Shown here: positions 24,999 through 38,776 of the stretch, piece by piece | Layout: the number at the start of each line of letters is the position of its first letter | Numbering within the stretch: position 1 is the stretch's first letter | From: a virus | Length of the DNA: 47,214 nt | IMG/VR virus record: IMGVR_UViG_3300028553_000049 | Span: 1-47,214 of that record | Reading direction: 5' to 3' (one strand) | Notes under the pieces: model-generated | What the model was told of the DNA's origin: nothing | The model's database searches: none | What the model saw: the letters and a program-made list of their open reading frames with translations, nothing else | Program-made: the position numbers and the translations under genes

Positions 24999-25412
24999 AT
25001 GGAACATTATAATGGGATTGAAAAAGCATTAAATGTAGAAACTGAAATTATAAAAAAGTCTGAAATTTCTTCAATAGAAAAAATTTCAACTATGGAAGAT
25101 ATGCAAATAGATTATTCTTATAGTAGAAATCAACTTTATTCTTTAATAGAAAAGGGGCAGGAAGCGGTTAATGGAATTTTAGATGTTGCTGCAAGTTCAG
25201 ATCATCCAAGAGCTTATGAGGTTGCTGGTCAATTAATTAAAAATGTGGCAGATGTAACTGATAAATTGACAGAATTGCACAAAAAAATGAAAGATCTTAA
25301 TGATGACTATCAAGGACCAAAATCAATTACTAATAATGCTTTGTATGTAGGATCTACTGCAGATCTTTTACAATTAATTAAACAAGAAAAAAAGATGTCT
25401 TCGGCAGAATAA
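24999..25412 (+). CDS. 16: Small terminase subunit gp16
   Basis: A 137-residue, mostly helical acidic/basic protein. In T4-like phages gp16 recognises concatemeric DNA and stimulates the gp17 motor. Supporting features are the position after gene 15, the size (T4 gp16 is 164 aa), and the helical central block YSRNQLYSLIEKGQEAVNGI ... RAYEVAGQLIKNVADVTDKL, typical of the oligomerising core in this family. Unlike T4, the gene is separated from gene 17 by a 1.1 kb gene with its own late promoter. Confidence 0.8.
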   Translation: MEHYNGIEKALNVETEIIKKSEISSIEKISTMEDMQIDYSYSRNQLYSLIEKGQEAVNGILDVAASSDHPRAYEVAGQLIKNVADVTDKLTELHKKMKDLNDDYQGPKSITNNALYVGSTADLLQLIKQEKKMSSAE

Positions 25413-25414
25413 AT

Positions 25415-25422
25415 TATAAATA
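25415..25422 (+). promoter_or_regulatory. Late promoter (TATAAATA)
   Basis: A perfect TATAAATA starts 2 bases after the gp16 stop and 30 bases before the ATG at 25445, so the Cys-rich gene and gp17 can be transcribed independently of gp16. Confidence 0.65.
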
Positions 25423-25444: not shown

Positions 25445-26560
25445 ATGAAAAAAGATTGCGGTTGTGCTCATCAAAAGTGTAATAATACTCCAAAAGATAA
25501 AATGTGCCCTAAGCATGGTATGAGAGATTGTACGCTTAATGAAGAAGGTCTCCGCAATTGGTTTAAAAGTTCCAGTTCTAAAGATGGTAAAGGTGGTTGG
25601 GTAAACGTTGTAACTGGTGGAACCTGTGCAAGTGATGAACCAGGAGAAGGAGTTCCTAAATGTGTTTCTTCTTCCAAAAGAGTAAGTATGACGCCAGCAG
25701 AGAGACGTTCAGCAGCAGCAAGAAAAAAAAGACAAGATCCAGGACAACAAGCAAAATCTGGTGCTGCAGCGCCAACTAATGTTCCCACAGATTCCCCTAA
25801 AAAGAAAATGAACGAAGAATCAGATCAGAAAGGTAAAGGTAGTGGTTCAAAAGATGCTTGTTATCATAAAGTAAAATCTAGATATGATGTTTGGCCTAGT
25901 GCATATGCATCTGGAGCACTTGTTAAATGTCGTAAAGCAGGAGCAAAAAATTGGGGAAACAAATCAGAAAGTTTATCTGTAGATGTAACAAGTGAAGCGT
26001 GTTGGTCAGGATATACTGCTAAAGGTTTGAAAAAAAAAGATAATAAATTAGTTCCAAATTGTGTTAAAGAAGTATTAGAAAATCAATCAATATTAGAATC
26101 TCCAAAAGTAATTCGTAGCGTAGGACAAACTTACACTGTAATTTTAAATTGGAAAACTAAAATTTTAAGTATTAAATTTTTCTTTCCATCTCAGCAAAGA
26201 CCCACAAAGGAAGAAGTTCAGGCAGCAATAGAAAAGATTTATCCTGGCGCAATTTTACAATACTATGCACCTGCGATAAATGACCCAACAGGACCCTTTA
26301 TTGTTGTAGATGAAGCAGCTGCCTGGACAAAAAAGTCTGGTAAAAATTCGGAAGGTGGTTTAAATGAAAAAGGACGCAAATCTTACGAAGCAGATAATCC
26401 TGGATCTGATCTTAAGGCACCCAGCAAAAAAGTTGGAAATCCTCGCAGAAAAAGTTTTTGTGCAAGAATGAGTGGGATGAAAGCAAAGTTAACATCTGCA
26501 AAAACTGCTAGAGATCCTGATAGTAGAATTAATAAATCTCTTCGTGCTTGGAATTGTTAA
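25445..26560 (+). CDS. Cys- and Lys-rich multi-domain phage protein between terminase genes
   Basis: A 371-residue protein with no enzyme motif that I recognise. It reads as a string of small domains. Residues 5-28 carry a zinc-cluster-like set (C5, C7, H9, C12, C21, H24, C28). Residues about 34-78 hold LRNWFKSSSSKDGKGGWVNV...CASDEPGEG, a W-V-N-V/C unit resembling DUF5872-type domains. A Lys/Ala-rich linker follows. Residues about 139-165 contain ACYHKVKSRYDVWPSAYASG, a motif widespread in phage head and packaging-region proteins. An ACWSGYTAKG unit comes next, and the C-terminal 80 residues (AAWTKKSGKNSEGGLNEKG...SFCARMSGMKAKLTS) form another known phage domain of unknown function. The strong basic charge suggests nucleic-acid contact. 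It may assist packaging or be carried in the head; both are inferences from position and composition. Confidence 0.7.
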   Translation: MKKDCGCAHQKCNNTPKDKMCPKHGMRDCTLNEEGLRNWFKSSSSKDGKGGWVNVVTGGTCASDEPGEGVPKCVSSSKRVSMTPAERRSAAARKKRQDPGQQAKSGAAAPTNVPTDSPKKKMNEESDQKGKGSGSKDACYHKVKSRYDVWPSAYASGALVKCRKAGAKNWGNKSESLSVDVTSEACWSGYTAKGLKKKDNKLVPNCVKEVLENQSILESPKVIRSVGQTYTVILNWKTKILSIKFFFPSQQRPTKEEVQAAIEKIYPGAILQYYAPAINDPTGPFIVVDEAAAWTKKSGKNSEGGLNEKGRKSYEADNPGSDLKAPSKKVGNPRRKSFCARMSGMKAKLTSAKTARDPDSRINKSLRAWNC

Positions 26561-26563
26561 ATA

Positions 26564-28243
26564 ATGCCATATGATGATATTTACTTAGGTAATCCATTAC
26601 TTAAGAAAGCAAATGTAGATATTCAATTTACTCCAGATCAAGTTAAAGAATTTATAAAATGTAAAGACGATCCAGTATATTTCGCTAACAATTATATTAA
26701 GATTGTTAGCGTAGATGAGGGATTAATTCCTTTTGAAATATATCCATTTCAAGAAAAATTAATTAAAAATTTTCATAATTATAGATTCAACATTTGTAAA
26801 ATGCCAAGGCAATCTGGCAAATCTACGACTGTTGTCTCATATCTTTTACATTATGTTGTTTTTAACGATAATGTAAATGTGGGTATACTAGCAAACAAAG
26901 CCTCCACAGCAAAAGATCTTCTTGGGAGGTTGCAGAAATCTTATGAAAATCTTCCAAAGTGGATGCAGCAGGGTGTTCAAGTTTGGAATAAGGCATCATT
27001 AGAATTGGAAAATGGATCTAAAATTATAGCAGCATCCACCTCAGCATCTGCTGTTCGAGGAATGTCCTTCAACATTATATTTTTGGACGAATTTGCGTTT
27101 ATTCCTAATCATATTGCCGAAGACTTTTTTAGTTCGGTATATCCAACAATCTCATCAGGTAAAACTACTAAGGTAATTATCGTATCTACGCCAAAAGGCA
27201 TGAATCATTTTTACCGTTTATGGCATGATTCTGAAAGAGGTAAAAATGAATATATTCCAACTGAAGTTCATTGGACTGAAGTTCCCGGAAGAGATGCTGC
27301 TTGGAAAGCACAAACAATTAGCAATACATCAGAACAACAATTTCAACAAGAATTTGAATGTGATTTTTTAGGATCATCTGATACATTAATTTCTAGCGCC
27401 AAATTAAAGTCTTTAGTATTTGAAGATCCAATAAAGAAAAATAAAGGTTTAGATGTTTATGTAAATCCAATTGAAGATCGAAATTATTTTACAACTGTAG
27501 ATGTTGCTAGAGGAACTGAAAACGATTATTCTGCATTTATTGTTTTCGACATTACAGAGTTTCCTTGGAAGGTTGTTGCGAAATACAAAAACAATCAAAT
27601 TAAACCAATGCTTTTCCCTAGTATTATAAGTGATGTTGCTAAGGCTTATAATCAATCATATATCTTAGTTGAAATTAATGATATTGGAGAACAAGTTGCA
27701 AATATTTTACATTTTGATCTTGAATATGAAAATGTCTTAATGTGCTCAATGCGAGGAAGGGCTGGACAAATAGTTGGGCAAGGATTTTCTGGATCTAAAT
27801 CTCAACTTGGAATTAAGATGTCTAAGACAGTTAAAAAAATTGGTTGTTCAAATTTAAAAACTTTAATAGAAGACGATAAACTTATATTCAGTGATTATGA
27901 TATTATATCAGAATTAACTACATTTATTCAAAAAAATCATTCATTTGAAGCAGAACAGGGAGCAAATGATGATTTAGCAATGTGTCTTGTTATATTTGCA
28001 TGGTTAGTAGTACAACCATATTTCAAGGAAATGACTGATAATGATGTTCGTAAAAGAATATATGACGAACAGAAAAATCAAATTGAACAAGACATGGCGC
28101 CATTTGGATTTATTGTGGATGGTTTAGATGATGATTTTGAAGTTGTAGATAAGCATACTGGAGACCGATGGGTAAGAGCAAATAACAACAATGCAAATTT
28201 TGATGAGTATGGTGATCACTCTTTTATGTGGGATTACGTTTAA
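26564..28243 (+). CDS. 17: Large terminase subunit gp17 (packaging ATPase and nuclease)
   Basis: gp17 is the ATP-driven DNA packaging motor and headful nuclease. The 559-residue protein has Walker A PRQSGKST (residues 81-88), Walker B IIFLDE (161-166), the coupling motif IIVSTP (195-200), and an RNase H-like nuclease with acidic residues in TTVDVARG (D303), LVEIND (E360) and GANDDLAM (D459/D460). These match the ATPase and nuclease triads of T4 gp17 (610 aa). The C-terminal tail is acidic and ends in MWDYV. It starts 4 bases after the Cys-rich gene and likely shares its transcript. All key residues are present, so it should be active. Confidence 0.97.
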   Translation: MPYDDIYLGNPLLKKANVDIQFTPDQVKEFIKCKDDPVYFANNYIKIVSVDEGLIPFEIYPFQEKLIKNFHNYRFNICKMPRQSGKSTTVVSYLLHYVVFNDNVNVGILANKASTAKDLLGRLQKSYENLPKWMQQGVQVWNKASLELENGSKIIAASTSASAVRGMSFNIIFLDEFAFIPNHIAEDFFSSVYPTISSGKTTKVIIVSTPKGMNHFYRLWHDSERGKNEYIPTEVHWTEVPGRDAAWKAQTISNTSEQQFQQEFECDFLGSSDTLISSAKLKSLVFEDPIKKNKGLDVYVNPIEDRNYFTTVDVARGTENDYSAFIVFDITEFPWKVVAKYKNNQIKPMLFPSIISDVAKAYNQSYILVEINDIGEQVANILHFDLEYENVLMCSMRGRAGQIVGQGFSGSKSQLGIKMSKTVKKIGCSNLKTLIEDDKLIFSDYDIISELTTFIQKNHSFEAEQGANDDLAMCLVIFAWLVVQPYFKEMTDNDVRKRIYDEQKNQIEQDMAPFGFIVDGLDDDFEVVDKHTGDRWVRANNNNANFDEYGDHSFMWDYV

Positions 28244-33940: not shown

Positions 33941-34585
33941 ATGAAACTAATTACAGAACAGATCGAATCCATTAAAGTCATTAAAGAAGAAAAAAACGGT
34001 AAAACTAATCTTTATATTACAGGACCTTTTCTTCAAGCAGAAGTCACGAATCGAAATGGACGCCGTTATCCATTCCCAATCTTAGAGAGAGAAGTTAAAA
34101 AGTATAACGATAAGTATATTGCATGTGGTAGAGCACTAGGGGAACTTGGACATCCAGATGGACCGACGGTAAATTTGGATAGAGTTTCTCACATGATTAC
34201 AAGTTTACAATCAGAAGGAAATAATTTTGTAGGTAAAGCAAAAATTCTTGATACTCCAATGGGAAATATTGCCAAGTCTCTTCTCGATGAAGGAGTTAAA
34301 CTTGGCGTTTCTTCAAGAGGAGTTGGATCTCTAATTGAAAGAAATGGTATTAAATATGCTGGTGATGATTTTATGTTATCAACTGCTGCAGATATTGTAG
34401 CAGATCCTTCTGCTCCTGATGCATTTGTTCAGGGTATTATGGAAGGTAAAGAATGGGTTTGGCAAAATGGTAAACTTGCAGAACAAACTTTAAATGGACT
34501 ATTAACCATGAAAATTAGTCCAGATAAAATGGTGAATGAGGAGAAATTACTCAATCTCTTCAATCATTACCTCAAAAATCTTTAA
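33941..34585 (+). CDS. 21: Prohead core protease gp21
   Basis: gp21 is the serine-type protease that degrades the scaffold core and trims the capsid protein at L/I-x-E sites. The 214-residue product has the family motifs GPFLQAEVTNRNGRRYPFPI, the probable catalytic His in GELGHPD (H71), the Ser in GVSSRGVG (S124/S125), and the later D-I-V-A-D-P-S-A-P-D-A block that completes the active site. T4 gp21 has 212 residues, so the size fits. It is sandwiched between core-protein genes and its scaffold and capsid substrates. Confidence 0.93.
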   Translation: MKLITEQIESIKVIKEEKNGKTNLYITGPFLQAEVTNRNGRRYPFPILEREVKKYNDKYIACGRALGELGHPDGPTVNLDRVSHMITSLQSEGNNFVGKAKILDTPMGNIAKSLLDEGVKLGVSSRGVGSLIERNGIKYAGDDFMLSTAADIVADPSAPDAFVQGIMEGKEWVWQNGKLAEQTLNGLLTMKISPDKMVNEEKLLNLFNHYLKNL

Positions 34586-34640: not shown

Positions 34641-35702
34641 ATGTCAACTGGTAATTTACAAGAAATGGGCGCTACAACAACTAATCAATCCAACTCTGCG
34701 GTAAATGCGAATGCTCAACCTGGGGATCCAATGTTGAGTAATGGCGCTTTTGTTGGCGGAACTCCTGGGCAAACTATCACTGATCTTGGGGGACCTACTC
34801 CCGATAACTACAGGTCTACAGATGATTCGGCAAAATTAAATTTTAATGCTGTTGCTTCTGTTAGAAATGTAGTTAATTCTAAAGCAATGAGAGCAGAAGA
34901 AGAAGAGTATGAAGACGAAGAAGTAATTTCTGAAGTTGATGAAACTGAAGAGTATGAGGAAGAAGTTGAAGATGAAATTGAAATTGATGTAGAAGAAGAT
35001 GTTCAAGCTTTATTTGGTGATGAGGATCTTTCCGAAGAATTTAAAGAAAGAGCAAAAACTGTTTTCGAAACAGCACTTAGATCGAAAGTTCAAGAAGCTG
35101 CTGATATGATTGCTGCTCGTTATGAGAAAGCACTTGAAGAAAACGTAGCAGCAATTCACCAAGATCTTACAGAAAGAGTTGATTCATACCTAGAATATGT
35201 TGCTGGTGAATGGATCACCGAAAACGCTCTTCAAGTAGAGCGTGGACTTAAATCAGAACTCTCTGAGTCCTTTATGACTGGACTCAAGGGTCTTTTTGAA
35301 GAACATTATGTACAAATCCCTGAAGAAAAATATAATGTATTTGAAAGCATGGTAGACAAACTTGATGATATGGAGTCGAAACTCAACGAACAAATCGAAA
35401 GAAACGTTCAGTTAACTCAAAGACTTAGCGAATCAGTTTCCGATAGCATTTTCCACGAAGTTGCTAGGGGTCTTTCTGAGACTCAGAAAGGAAAACTCGC
35501 AGGTCTTTCAGAAAGTGTTGAGTTCATTAGTGAAAATGACTATCGTGGGAAGTTGGAAGTTCTTAAAGAATCATATTTTTCTAGAACACCAGTAACTCAA
35601 TCTAGAGTTAACGATGATGAAATGCTCGGAACAAATTCAGAGACTCTTTCGGAGTCGATGGATATGTATATCAGAGCGGCTCAAAAATACTCTATTAAGT
35701 GA
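34641..35702 (+). CDS. 22: Prohead scaffold (core) protein gp22
   Basis: gp22 is the main scaffold around which gp23 assembles; gp21 later degrades it. The 353-residue product has a flexible Gly/Asn/Thr-rich N-terminus (about 1-75), a very acidic stretch near residues 85-130 (EEEYEDEEVISEVDETEEYE), and a long helical, coiled-coil-prone C-terminal part (DKLDDMESKLNEQIERNVQL). Several L-x-E tripeptides offer gp21 cleavage sites. T4 gp22 is 269 aa; the N-terminal extension is typical of marine relatives. A strong ribosome-binding site (CGGAGA, 34628-34633) precedes the start. Confidence 0.9.
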   Translation: MSTGNLQEMGATTTNQSNSAVNANAQPGDPMLSNGAFVGGTPGQTITDLGGPTPDNYRSTDDSAKLNFNAVASVRNVVNSKAMRAEEEEYEDEEVISEVDETEEYEEEVEDEIEIDVEEDVQALFGDEDLSEEFKERAKTVFETALRSKVQEAADMIAARYEKALEENVAAIHQDLTERVDSYLEYVAGEWITENALQVERGLKSELSESFMTGLKGLFEEHYVQIPEEKYNVFESMVDKLDDMESKLNEQIERNVQLTQRLSESVSDSIFHEVARGLSETQKGKLAGLSESVEFISENDYRGKLEVLKESYFSRTPVTQSRVNDDEMLGTNSETLSESMDMYIRAAQKYSIK

Positions 35703-35751: not shown

Positions 35752-37146
35752 ATGTACAACGCAGAATATCTGCAAGAAAAGTGGTCCCCCCTCTTGAATT
35801 GTGAAGGACTTGACCCGATCAAGGATTCTCACCGTAGAGGAGTAACCGCTATCCTGCTCGAAAACCAAGAAAGAGCACTCCGCGAAGAGCGTGGATTCCT
35901 TTCTGAAGCACCAACCATGGCAACTGGAACCGGTGGTTTTGGTGGTGGTACTTATGGTACTGCTGCTGCATCAGGTCCTGTTGCTGGTTTCGATCCTGTT
36001 CTGATCTCTTTGATCAGACGTTCAATGCCACAACTCATTGCTTATGATATTTGTGGTGTTCAACCAATGACTGGTCCTACTGGACTTATCTTTGCGATGA
36101 GAACTCGCTACGGTACTGACCGTACTTCTGGAACCGAAGCATTCTTTAACGAAGCAGATTCTAGATTCTCTGGTCAAGATTCTGATGGATCTCTTACCGC
36201 AAGTGATTACACTGCACAAGCATCTGTTGGTATCGCAACAACTGCTGCCCAAACTGGTAGCAACCCTGCTGTTCTCAACGATGCATCTGCTGGCTCCTAC
36301 AACGTAGGTCAGGCGATGGCAACCGCCAACGCTGAAGCACTTGGCGATTCTGGTCAACTTTTCAACGAGATGAATTTCTCGATTGAGAAAGTTACTGTTG
36401 CTGCAAAATCAAGAGCACTGAAGGCTGAGTATTCACTAGAACTTGCTCAAGACCTCAAGGCTGTTCACGGTCTTGATGCCGAAGCAGAACTTGCAAACAT
36501 CCTCTCAACTGAAATCCTTGCTGAAATCAACAGAGAAGTTGTTCGTACCGTATATCAGATTGCTGAAGCTGGCGCTCAAGCAAACACTGCTACTGCCGGT
36601 ATCTTCGACCTTGACGTTGACTCCAATGGTCGCTGGTCCGTTGAGAAGTTCAAAGGTCTTCTATTCCAACTAGAGCGCGATGCTAACGCTATTGCTCAAA
36701 GAACTCGTAGAGGAAAAGGCAACACCATCATCTGTTCTGCAGACGTTGCTTCCGCTCTGACGATGGCAGGTGTACTTGATTACACTCCTGCTCTTCAAGT
36801 TGGTCTAAATGTTGATGACACTGGCAGCACTTTTGCTGGAGTTATCAACGGTAAGTATAAAGTTTATATTGATCCATATTCCGCTAACATTTCTGCTCAG
36901 CAGTATTATGTTATTGGATTTAAAGGTGCAACACCTTATGATGCTGGACTATTCTACTGTCCTTATGTTCCTCTCCAAATGGTTCGCGCCGTTGGTCAGG
37001 ACACCTTCCAACCAAAAATTGGATTTAAGACCCGCTACGGCATGGTTGCTAATCCATTCGCTGAAGGAACCGATCAAGGACTTGGTAGACTCAAGACTAA
37101 CTCTAACCGTTATTACAGAAGAGTACAAGTCAAGAACCTTATGTGA
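35752..37146 (+). CDS. 23: Major capsid protein gp23
   Basis: gp23 forms the hexamers of the head shell. The 464-residue precursor shows the family features: an N-terminal propeptide (YLQEKWSPLLNCEGLDPIKD) and a likely gp21 cleavage at LSE|A after residue 52; IRRSMPQLIAYDICGVQPM and GPTGLIFAMRTRYG in the HK97-fold core; LELAQDLKAVHGLDAEAELA; and the C-terminal CPYVPLQMVRAVGQDTFQPK with GFKTRYGMVANPF. Codon use is clearly shifted to C-ending codons (aac, gac, ctc), and base composition is visibly less AT-rich than its neighbours, as expected for the most abundant virion protein. A strong hairpin terminator follows 20 bases after the stop. Confidence 0.98.
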   Translation: MYNAEYLQEKWSPLLNCEGLDPIKDSHRRGVTAILLENQERALREERGFLSEAPTMATGTGGFGGGTYGTAAASGPVAGFDPVLISLIRRSMPQLIAYDICGVQPMTGPTGLIFAMRTRYGTDRTSGTEAFFNEADSRFSGQDSDGSLTASDYTAQASVGIATTAAQTGSNPAVLNDASAGSYNVGQAMATANAEALGDSGQLFNEMNFSIEKVTVAAKSRALKAEYSLELAQDLKAVHGLDAEAELANILSTEILAEINREVVRTVYQIAEAGAQANTATAGIFDLDVDSNGRWSVEKFKGLLFQLERDANAIAQRTRRGKGNTIICSADVASALTMAGVLDYTPALQVGLNVDDTGSTFAGVINGKYKVYIDPYSANISAQQYYVIGFKGATPYDAGLFYCPYVPLQMVRAVGQDTFQPKIGFKTRYGMVANPFAEGTDQGLGRLKTNSNRYYRRVQVKNLM

Positions 37147-38245: not shown

Positions 38246-38776
38246 ATGAGAAATGACTATTATGTTTATGCTTATTTAAGAGAAGATATGACTCCATATT
38301 ATATTGGAAAAGGAACTGGAAGAAGGTCACACCAAAAAAACAAAAAAACTCATAAATTTGTAAAAATACCAAAAGACAGAACAAAAATAGTTTATATAGT
38401 TGAAAATATAACAGAAAATGATGCTTTAATTAAAGAAAAAGAAATAATAAAATTTTATGGTAGAAAACTTGATGGTGGTATTTTAGTAAATATTAGCGAA
38501 GGTGGGGAAAAGGGATATGCGGCTATGAAAGGAAAAAAACATACAGAAGAATCAAAAAATAAAATGTCAAATTCCCATAAGGGAAAAAACACTTGGAATA
38601 AAGGAAAATGCGGATTGCAAAATCATAGCGATGAAACTAAACAAAAAATATCAAATAATAGTAGAGGAAATAAAAGCAGAACCGGACAAAAACAAAGTCA
38701 AGAAGAAAAAAATAAAAAAAGTGAATCTTTAAAAAAATATTATGCTGAAAGAAGAGAGCAGGGATACAAAAGATAG
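38246..38776 (+). CDS. GIY-YIG homing endonuclease with NUMOD3 repeats
   Basis: A 176-residue free-standing endonuclease. The N-terminal GIY-YIG nuclease domain covers about residues 5-90: YVYAYL (GIY position), PYYIGKGTGRR (YIG with the catalytic Arg), the Glu-containing helix LIKEKEIIKFYGR, and VNISEGG with the conserved Asn (N82). The C-terminal half (about 93-150) holds NUMOD3-type DNA-binding repeats (MKGKKHTEESKNKMS, SHKGKNTWNKGK, SDETKQKISNNSRG). Such enzymes cut a phage lineage lacking the insertion and spread by recombination. The gene is extremely A-rich and Lys-rich compared with its neighbours. It has its own late promoter and sits cleanly between uvsY and uvsW, which are usually adjacent. 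All catalytic positions look intact. Confidence 0.9.
   Translation: MRNDYYVYAYLREDMTPYYIGKGTGRRSHQKNKKTHKFVKIPKDRTKIVYIVENITENDALIKEKEIIKFYGRKLDGGILVNISEGGEKGYAAMKGKKHTEESKNKMSNSHKGKNTWNKGKCGLQNHSDETKQKISNNSRGNKSRTGQKQSQEEKNKKSESLKKYYAERREQGYKR

Follow-up and report, generated by a model that had tools for sequence, protein, structure and literature searches.

What is an additional gene doing between the two terminase genes of a T4-like phage? The stretch of DNA analysed here (the window, 47,214 nt) represents 47 kb of a T4-like cyanophage genome and encodes a terminase large subunit (TerL) 83% identical to that of the freshwater Synechococcus phage DSL-LC02. The genes run in the order g15, g16, the gene in question, g17 and g18. 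An intact ORF encoding a multidomain protein of 371 aa (25445..26560; coordinates written with two dots are those of window features on the + strand) is preceded by g16, encoding the terminase small subunit TerS (24999..25412; PHROG 445, E 8e-50), and followed by g17, encoding TerL (26564..28243; PF03237/PF17289). In the T4 record g16 (96194-96688) and g17 (96672-98504) overlap, and a preliminary description of this DNA was thus right to say that the pair is split here. That description also proposed that the protein acts either as a packaging accessory or as a DNA-binding protein loaded into the head. We argue, with moderate confidence, that the product of the gene is a polyprotein that T4-like cyanophages carry inside the head and that is processed by a gp21-type protease.

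The 371-aa protein is not unique to the window but is a member of a known, uncharacterised cyanomyovirus family, T4-GC119/PHROG 727/DUF6321, whose members, present in hundreds of cyanophage records, have been labelled hypothetical since 2010. It matches PHROG 727 with an E-value of 6.7e-120 and shares with the T4-GC119 proteins full-length similarity, modules, a C-terminal DUF6321 and a location between g15 and g18. Matches were found in 525 phage records, 76 of which cover at least 80% of the query, and the cyanomyovirus GC119 relatives reach about 59-63% identity over at least 90% of the protein. The homologue is named T4-GC119 in the S-SM1 and S-SM2 records, with the product given as 'hypothetical protein', and S-SM1_115, S-SM2_109 and SSCSM1_29 have the same modules and occupy the same g16-g17 interval as the window protein. 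At 371 aa, the member encoded in the window is compact compared with the GC119 relatives and carries its Cys/His cluster at the N-terminus, and the window lacks the separate module E gene that several of them have. Matches to DUF6321 in genome contigs are nearly all to metagenome bins, and these are probably stray phage contigs.

The arrangement seen in the window is a common one. A DUF6321 gene lies between g16 and g17 in 32 of the 33 fetched loci that show both terminase genes (31 of 32 distinct loci when the window's duplicate is left out), although the fetched loci are the best matches and the sample therefore leans to close relatives. The exception is P-SSM2, in which the gene is 5′ of g16. 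A further 28 loci with only one terminase gene visible agree with this placement, and in 16 of the 33 the DUF6321 gene is within 60 nt before g17. The g15-g18 stretch is the published hyperplastic region of cyanomyoviruses (PMC2984593), an insertion hot spot that often also houses tail-fibre, petE, PTOX, gnd and zwf genes (PMC2984593, PMC3037559), and T4-GC119 has been mentioned alongside petE, PTOX, gnd and zwf as part of a cassette that may be mobile (Sullivan 2010, PMC3037559). The position of the DUF6321 genes is thus accounted for by a known hot spot between g15 and g18. Stand-alone DUF6321 genes (~70-90 aa) are also found in podophages, where they are flanked by capsid and tail genes (P-SCSP1s) or by scaffold and capsid genes (HTVC022P), lie 3′ of the connector genes (KBS-P-1A), or are outside the main structural region (Greip, HTVC024P and Lederberg). 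With these podophage genes elsewhere, and the P-SSM2 copy on the other side of g16, an obligate linkage to the terminase genes fails. The Greip gene (gp45, L089 3876-4127), an 83-aa stand-alone DUF6321, bears the label 'Gp114 RecA-like recombination protein', which we regard as a naming error.

The gene appears to have its own late promoter, as had been proposed, with the octamer TATAAATA (25415..25422) located 23 nt 5′ of the ATG. A case for late promoters made from counts of the octamer alone was dropped, since the window contains nine copies compared with 9.4 expected, and there is thus no over-representation; position relative to gene starts was used instead. Six of the nine copies lie 21-38 nt 5′ of a gene start (p = 2.5e-9), and the copy at 25415-25422 is therefore a believable late promoter.

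The 371-aa protein is the most positively charged among the window proteins examined (charge +31.6, pI 9.70), contains 13 cysteine residues and is composed of small units that were delimited by profiles built in this analysis. A zinc-knuckle-like Cys/His cluster occupies residues 1-30 (25445..25534), and the corresponding C-x-H..KG..CP.HG...C cluster is present in 11 relatives at varying sites, including inner positions. Then come module B (approximately residues 34-118, 25544..25798; PHROG 12753, with a relation to DUF5872 among distant members), module C (residues 126-175, 25820..25969; KDACYHKVKSRYxVWPSAYASGALVKCRK), module D (residues 182-210, 25988..26074; ACWSGY...VPNCV), module E (approximately residues 221-289, 26105..26311; predicted beta-beta-alpha-beta) and, at the C-terminus, module F (residues 291-371, 26315..26557), which is DUF6321 itself (PF19846; E 6e-22, 78.5 bits compared with a cut-off of 28.5) and ends in an invariant W-x-C. 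The zinc-like cluster and the several small domains of the preliminary description are therefore both borne out, the former as a recurring module and the latter as DUF6321 together with four further modules. Among the relatives, which range from 94 to >700 aa, the modules are shuffled: the order of B to E is variable and modules may be absent or duplicated, with module F last wherever it is found in cyanomyovirus members. Module E, fused in the window protein, is in many phages encoded by a separate, CTS-bearing gene of ~105 aa (PHROG 1742) directly 3′ of the F gene; PHROG 1742 matches window residues 224-276 with an E-value of 1.3e-3, and the E profile finds the stand-alone genes with E-values of about 1e-18 to 1e-21. 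We note two unusual family members: a 544-aa protein (L145 1474-3105) that combines a cytidylyltransferase-like part (Pfam E 0.0016, below the cut-off) with a C-terminal DUF6321, similar enzymes being virion proteins in several cyanophages, and a locus (L021 3686-5670) in which a 596-aa ORF is without DUF6321 and the domain is encoded further on, in a second frame that overlaps the first, the break being a frameshift, either real or from assembly.

An AlphaFold model (36 sequences; mean pLDDT 68.6, pTM 0.26) consists of small folded units, whose relative placement carries no meaning, and disordered stretches at residues 1-33 (which include the Cys/His cluster), 100-135, 173-183, 211-223 and 283-289. 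Searches of solved structures with the complete protein and with the profiles of module E and DUF6321 gave nothing usable, a match to a de novo designed protein (E 0.007) being judged due to chance. Foldseek with the full model gave no PDB match at E <=0.001 and found mainly the protein's own family among viral models. A search of NCBIfam with the 371-aa protein yielded no match, and a Pfam match to Senescence_reg (E 0.02, below the cut-off) reflects low complexity.

The linkers carry candidate sites of the type cut by prohead proteases (↓ marks the putative cut). These are LNE33↓EGLR where module B starts (25541..25543), MNE124↓ESDQ (25814..25816) and ILE218↓SPKV (26096..26098) in the disordered linkers that lead to modules C and E, respectively, and VDE290↓AAAW immediately before module F (26312..26314), and all four glutamates are on linkers in the AlphaFold model. 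Only those at 218 and 290 are followed by a small residue, and the sequence before module D, TSE↓A, does not match the pattern. In 43 non-redundant multidomain members of the family, [LIVMF]xE↓[ASGV] is present at 104 of 189 module starts, compared with 25.9±4.5 in shuffled sequences, the 43 proteins being related and their junctions thus not independent events. The junction glutamate is at a nearly fixed offset before each of five mutually unrelated domains. Per 100 aa, the pattern occurs 2.43 times at junctions, 0.04 times inside domains and 0.42 times in other ORFs; in the window gp22 scaffold protein (34641..35702), which has nine LSE↓S-type sites in 353 aa and served as a yardstick, the value is 2.55. 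A strict [LI]xE signal is weaker (79 of 189 junctions compared with 47.6 in shuffled sequences), with no enrichment before module B. The proposed processing enzyme is the gp21 prohead protease homologue of the window (33941..34585), assigned from gene order and sequence, and the gp23 major capsid protein (35752..37146) has a candidate propeptide cut at FLSE52↓APT.

Capsid-targeting sequences (CTS) provide the second line of evidence. In T4 the first ten residues are enough for packaging, with residues 4 and 7 responsible for targeting and residues 8 and 10 governing cutting (PMC9026906); in the T4 record ipII and ipIII start with MKTYQEFIAE↓A and ipI with MKTFKEF. The stand-alone E genes start with MKSFxQFLSE↓S and similar sequences, and the cyanophage starts match T4 at residues 4, 7, 8 and 10. 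Of 14 stand-alone E genes, 13 have a start of the form MK[ST][FY]xxF[IL]xE↓S, whereas among 1060 control ORFs it is found in 9 (Fisher p 2e-23), and several of the nine are small genes in or beside the same intervals. With a looser pattern, a CTS-like start is found on 11 of 15 short DUF6321 proteins in T4-type records compared with 36 of 794 controls, and on none of seven in complete non-T4 phages that have no gp21 match. In the S-SZBM1 interval the DUF6321 protein of gene 192 starts with a classic CTS, MKTFKQYITE↓A, and its gene adjoins an E gene starting with MKSFKSFLSE↓S. The whole S-SCSM1 genome has three CTS matches of at least 50 aa, one of them an unannotated frame; among annotated genes, such a start is confined to those for module E and NMNAT. 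The window protein starts with MKKDCGCAHQ, which is not a CTS, and contains no internal CTS-like stretch, and an N-terminal CTS is present in none of 40 long DUF6321 forms. Two long relatives that lack DUF6321 do bear one, and a few long forms have internal CTS-like stretches beside module starts.

Several other genes have features of this kind. The NMNAT gene of S-SCSM1 (SSCSM1_91, L102 38819-40048) starts with MKSFLQFLKE↓AAES, which would explain the presence of its product in particles, where it was detected by MS, and a 70-aa protein labelled as a virion protein in the same phage (SSCSM1_93, L102 41626-41835) has a C-terminal CTS-like sequence, KRTFKEFLEYIE. Gene 194 of S-SZBM1 (L107 8253-10376) encodes a basic protein of 707 aa just after TerS and its neighbour gene, and contains an internal FITYREFIAE↓G that closely resembles the CTS of T4 and might be either a second start or a targeting signal within the chain. 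Unrelated small genes with CTS-like starts, including MKTYNQFVLE↓A and MRTFESFLAE↓A, are also found in g16-g17 intervals of the family's loci (L082 7112-7735, L096 4506-5162, L099 4880-5305 and L032 2642-3355), and this interval may thus hold several head-internal proteins.

Records of virion composition give a mixed picture of the homologues of the 371-aa protein. For S-SCSM1, the virion proteins of which were determined by MS, with carry-over allowed by the authors for some proteins, the record gives SSCSM1_29 as 'virion protein'. The S-B43 homologue carries the label 'structural protein'. The GC119 protein of S-SM1 is labelled hypothetical rather than structural, though the S-SM1 virion was analysed, and in the part of the S-SZBM1 virion table available to us genes 191, 192 and 194 are not listed, whereas their neighbours 190 and 195 are.

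These records could also be reconciled with a late intracellular protein, binding DNA or RNA or acting on the host, that lies in the g15-g18 hot spot by chance and was detected in S-SCSM1 through carry-over of the sort its authors allow. The host-metabolism genes of the hyperplastic region, the S-SM1 label and the absence from the available part of the S-SZBM1 list are all in keeping with such a protein, but it would leave unexplained why separate E and DUF6321 genes carry a CTS and why protease-type sites lie at the junctions, and we regard this explanation as rather unlikely. A different objection is that the junction signal is a mere property of acidic linkers and that the protein stays whole, which would be compatible with a location in the head. 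The linkers are indeed Glu-rich, and a control with the hydrophobic residue (P4) one place further off is also raised (64 compared with 106 for the true motif); nevertheless, the mirror-image motif was counted only 38 times, shuffled sequences gave 27, replacement of E by D, Q or K gave 7-13, and the site density is close to that of gp22. We consider this a minority possibility that deserves some weight.

The conserved place between the terminase genes, often directly 5′ of g17, is what would be expected of a packaging accessory acting with gp16 and gp17, but that place is an insertion hot spot, the P-SSM2 gene precedes g16, the lone podophage genes are away from the terminase genes, and the spread in size and the shuffling of modules also argue against such a role, which seems improbable. 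We think it very improbable that the protein belongs to the tail, neck or fibres of the particle: tail-fibre virion proteins are encoded in the S-SCSM1 interval and a tail-fibre-like gene is found in that of S-SM2, but small, basic Cys/Lys-rich modules joined by linkers are unlike fibre proteins, the relatives bear head-type CTS, and the lone DUF6321 genes adjoin capsid or scaffold genes or follow connector genes in P-SCSP1s, HTVC022P and KBS-P-1A. Of the two functions put forward in the preliminary description, loading into the head is thus better supported than a special link to packaging, through the indirect testimony of the S-SCSM1 virion label, the CTS of stand-alone genes and the protease-like junction sites. 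That description had taken absence from virions, together with occurrence at unrelated positions with no link to packaging genes, as evidence against its proposal; unrelated positions do exist, but absence from virions does not apply to S-SCSM1.

According to the polyprotein model that we favour, the protein would be made late and enter the prohead with the scaffold core, where the gp21-type protease would cut the disordered linkers between modules. The small basic proteins so produced would remain associated with the packaged DNA and might enter the cell by ejection along with it, like the T4 internal proteins. The head-internal set would be encoded in two ways: either each protein has a gene of its own with a CTS, or they are fused in one chain whose linkers are cut. 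We infer that the window protein itself is incorporated and cut, binds DNA and is ejected; a putative DNA-binding activity of its Lys/Arg-rich chain is plausible from its charge, and ejection of the module proteins may occur by analogy with T4. The weakest step is entry into the prohead of the long forms, the 371-aa protein included, in the absence of an N-terminal CTS.

T4 IPI, IPII and IPIII are small and basic and share a CTS and a gp21-type site with the stand-alone genes of the family, a likeness compared at the CTS only; unlike them, the window protein has no N-terminal CTS and carries several modules in one chain. The giant phages phiKZ and SPN3US, compared here by description, have ejection or inner-body proteins with prohead-protease propeptides, and cleavage of their head proteins depends on little more than the glutamate that precedes the cut, with more than one site used in some cases (PMC9026906, PMC5694885). 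Their propeptides are long, whereas the window family has repeated inter-domain sites. If the model holds, a known hypervariable spot in a very common group of ocean viruses serves in part to store proteins that are packed into the head and possibly injected, and injected cyanophage proteins could be sought by using the CTS as a sequence tag; the CTS literature that we found covers T4 and its enterobacterial relatives, not cyanophages. The junction sites also give exact cleavage predictions.

A lead to the function of one released product comes from module E. When its model was compared with the PDB by Foldseek, the top four ranks were taken by YkzG and T7 Gp2, with E-values of 0.14-0.53 and probabilities of 0.66-0.85; none of these PDB matches to a T7 Gp2/YkzG-like fold is significant. 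YkzG and T7 Gp2 are small RNA-polymerase-binding proteins. A more elaborate scheme, which we consider doubtful, would make the g16-g17 interval an exchangeable cassette of head-loaded effector modules, fused as a polyprotein and converted by the prohead protease into several injected proteins, of which module E, with a T7 Gp2/YkzG-like fold, would act on the RNA polymerase of the host as infection begins.

Two other genes of the window are of interest. A very basic 176-aa GIY-YIG endonuclease-like protein is encoded at 38246-38776, apparently inserted between uvsY- and uvsW-like genes, and has its own TATAAATA 22 nt upstream. A truncated ORF extends from about 46669 to the end of the window, and its start, MNSKEVKYLAEAYSNVYSES, is similar in style to that of S-SCSM1 virion protein 89, MDSKTFNSLSEAYAAVYSN.
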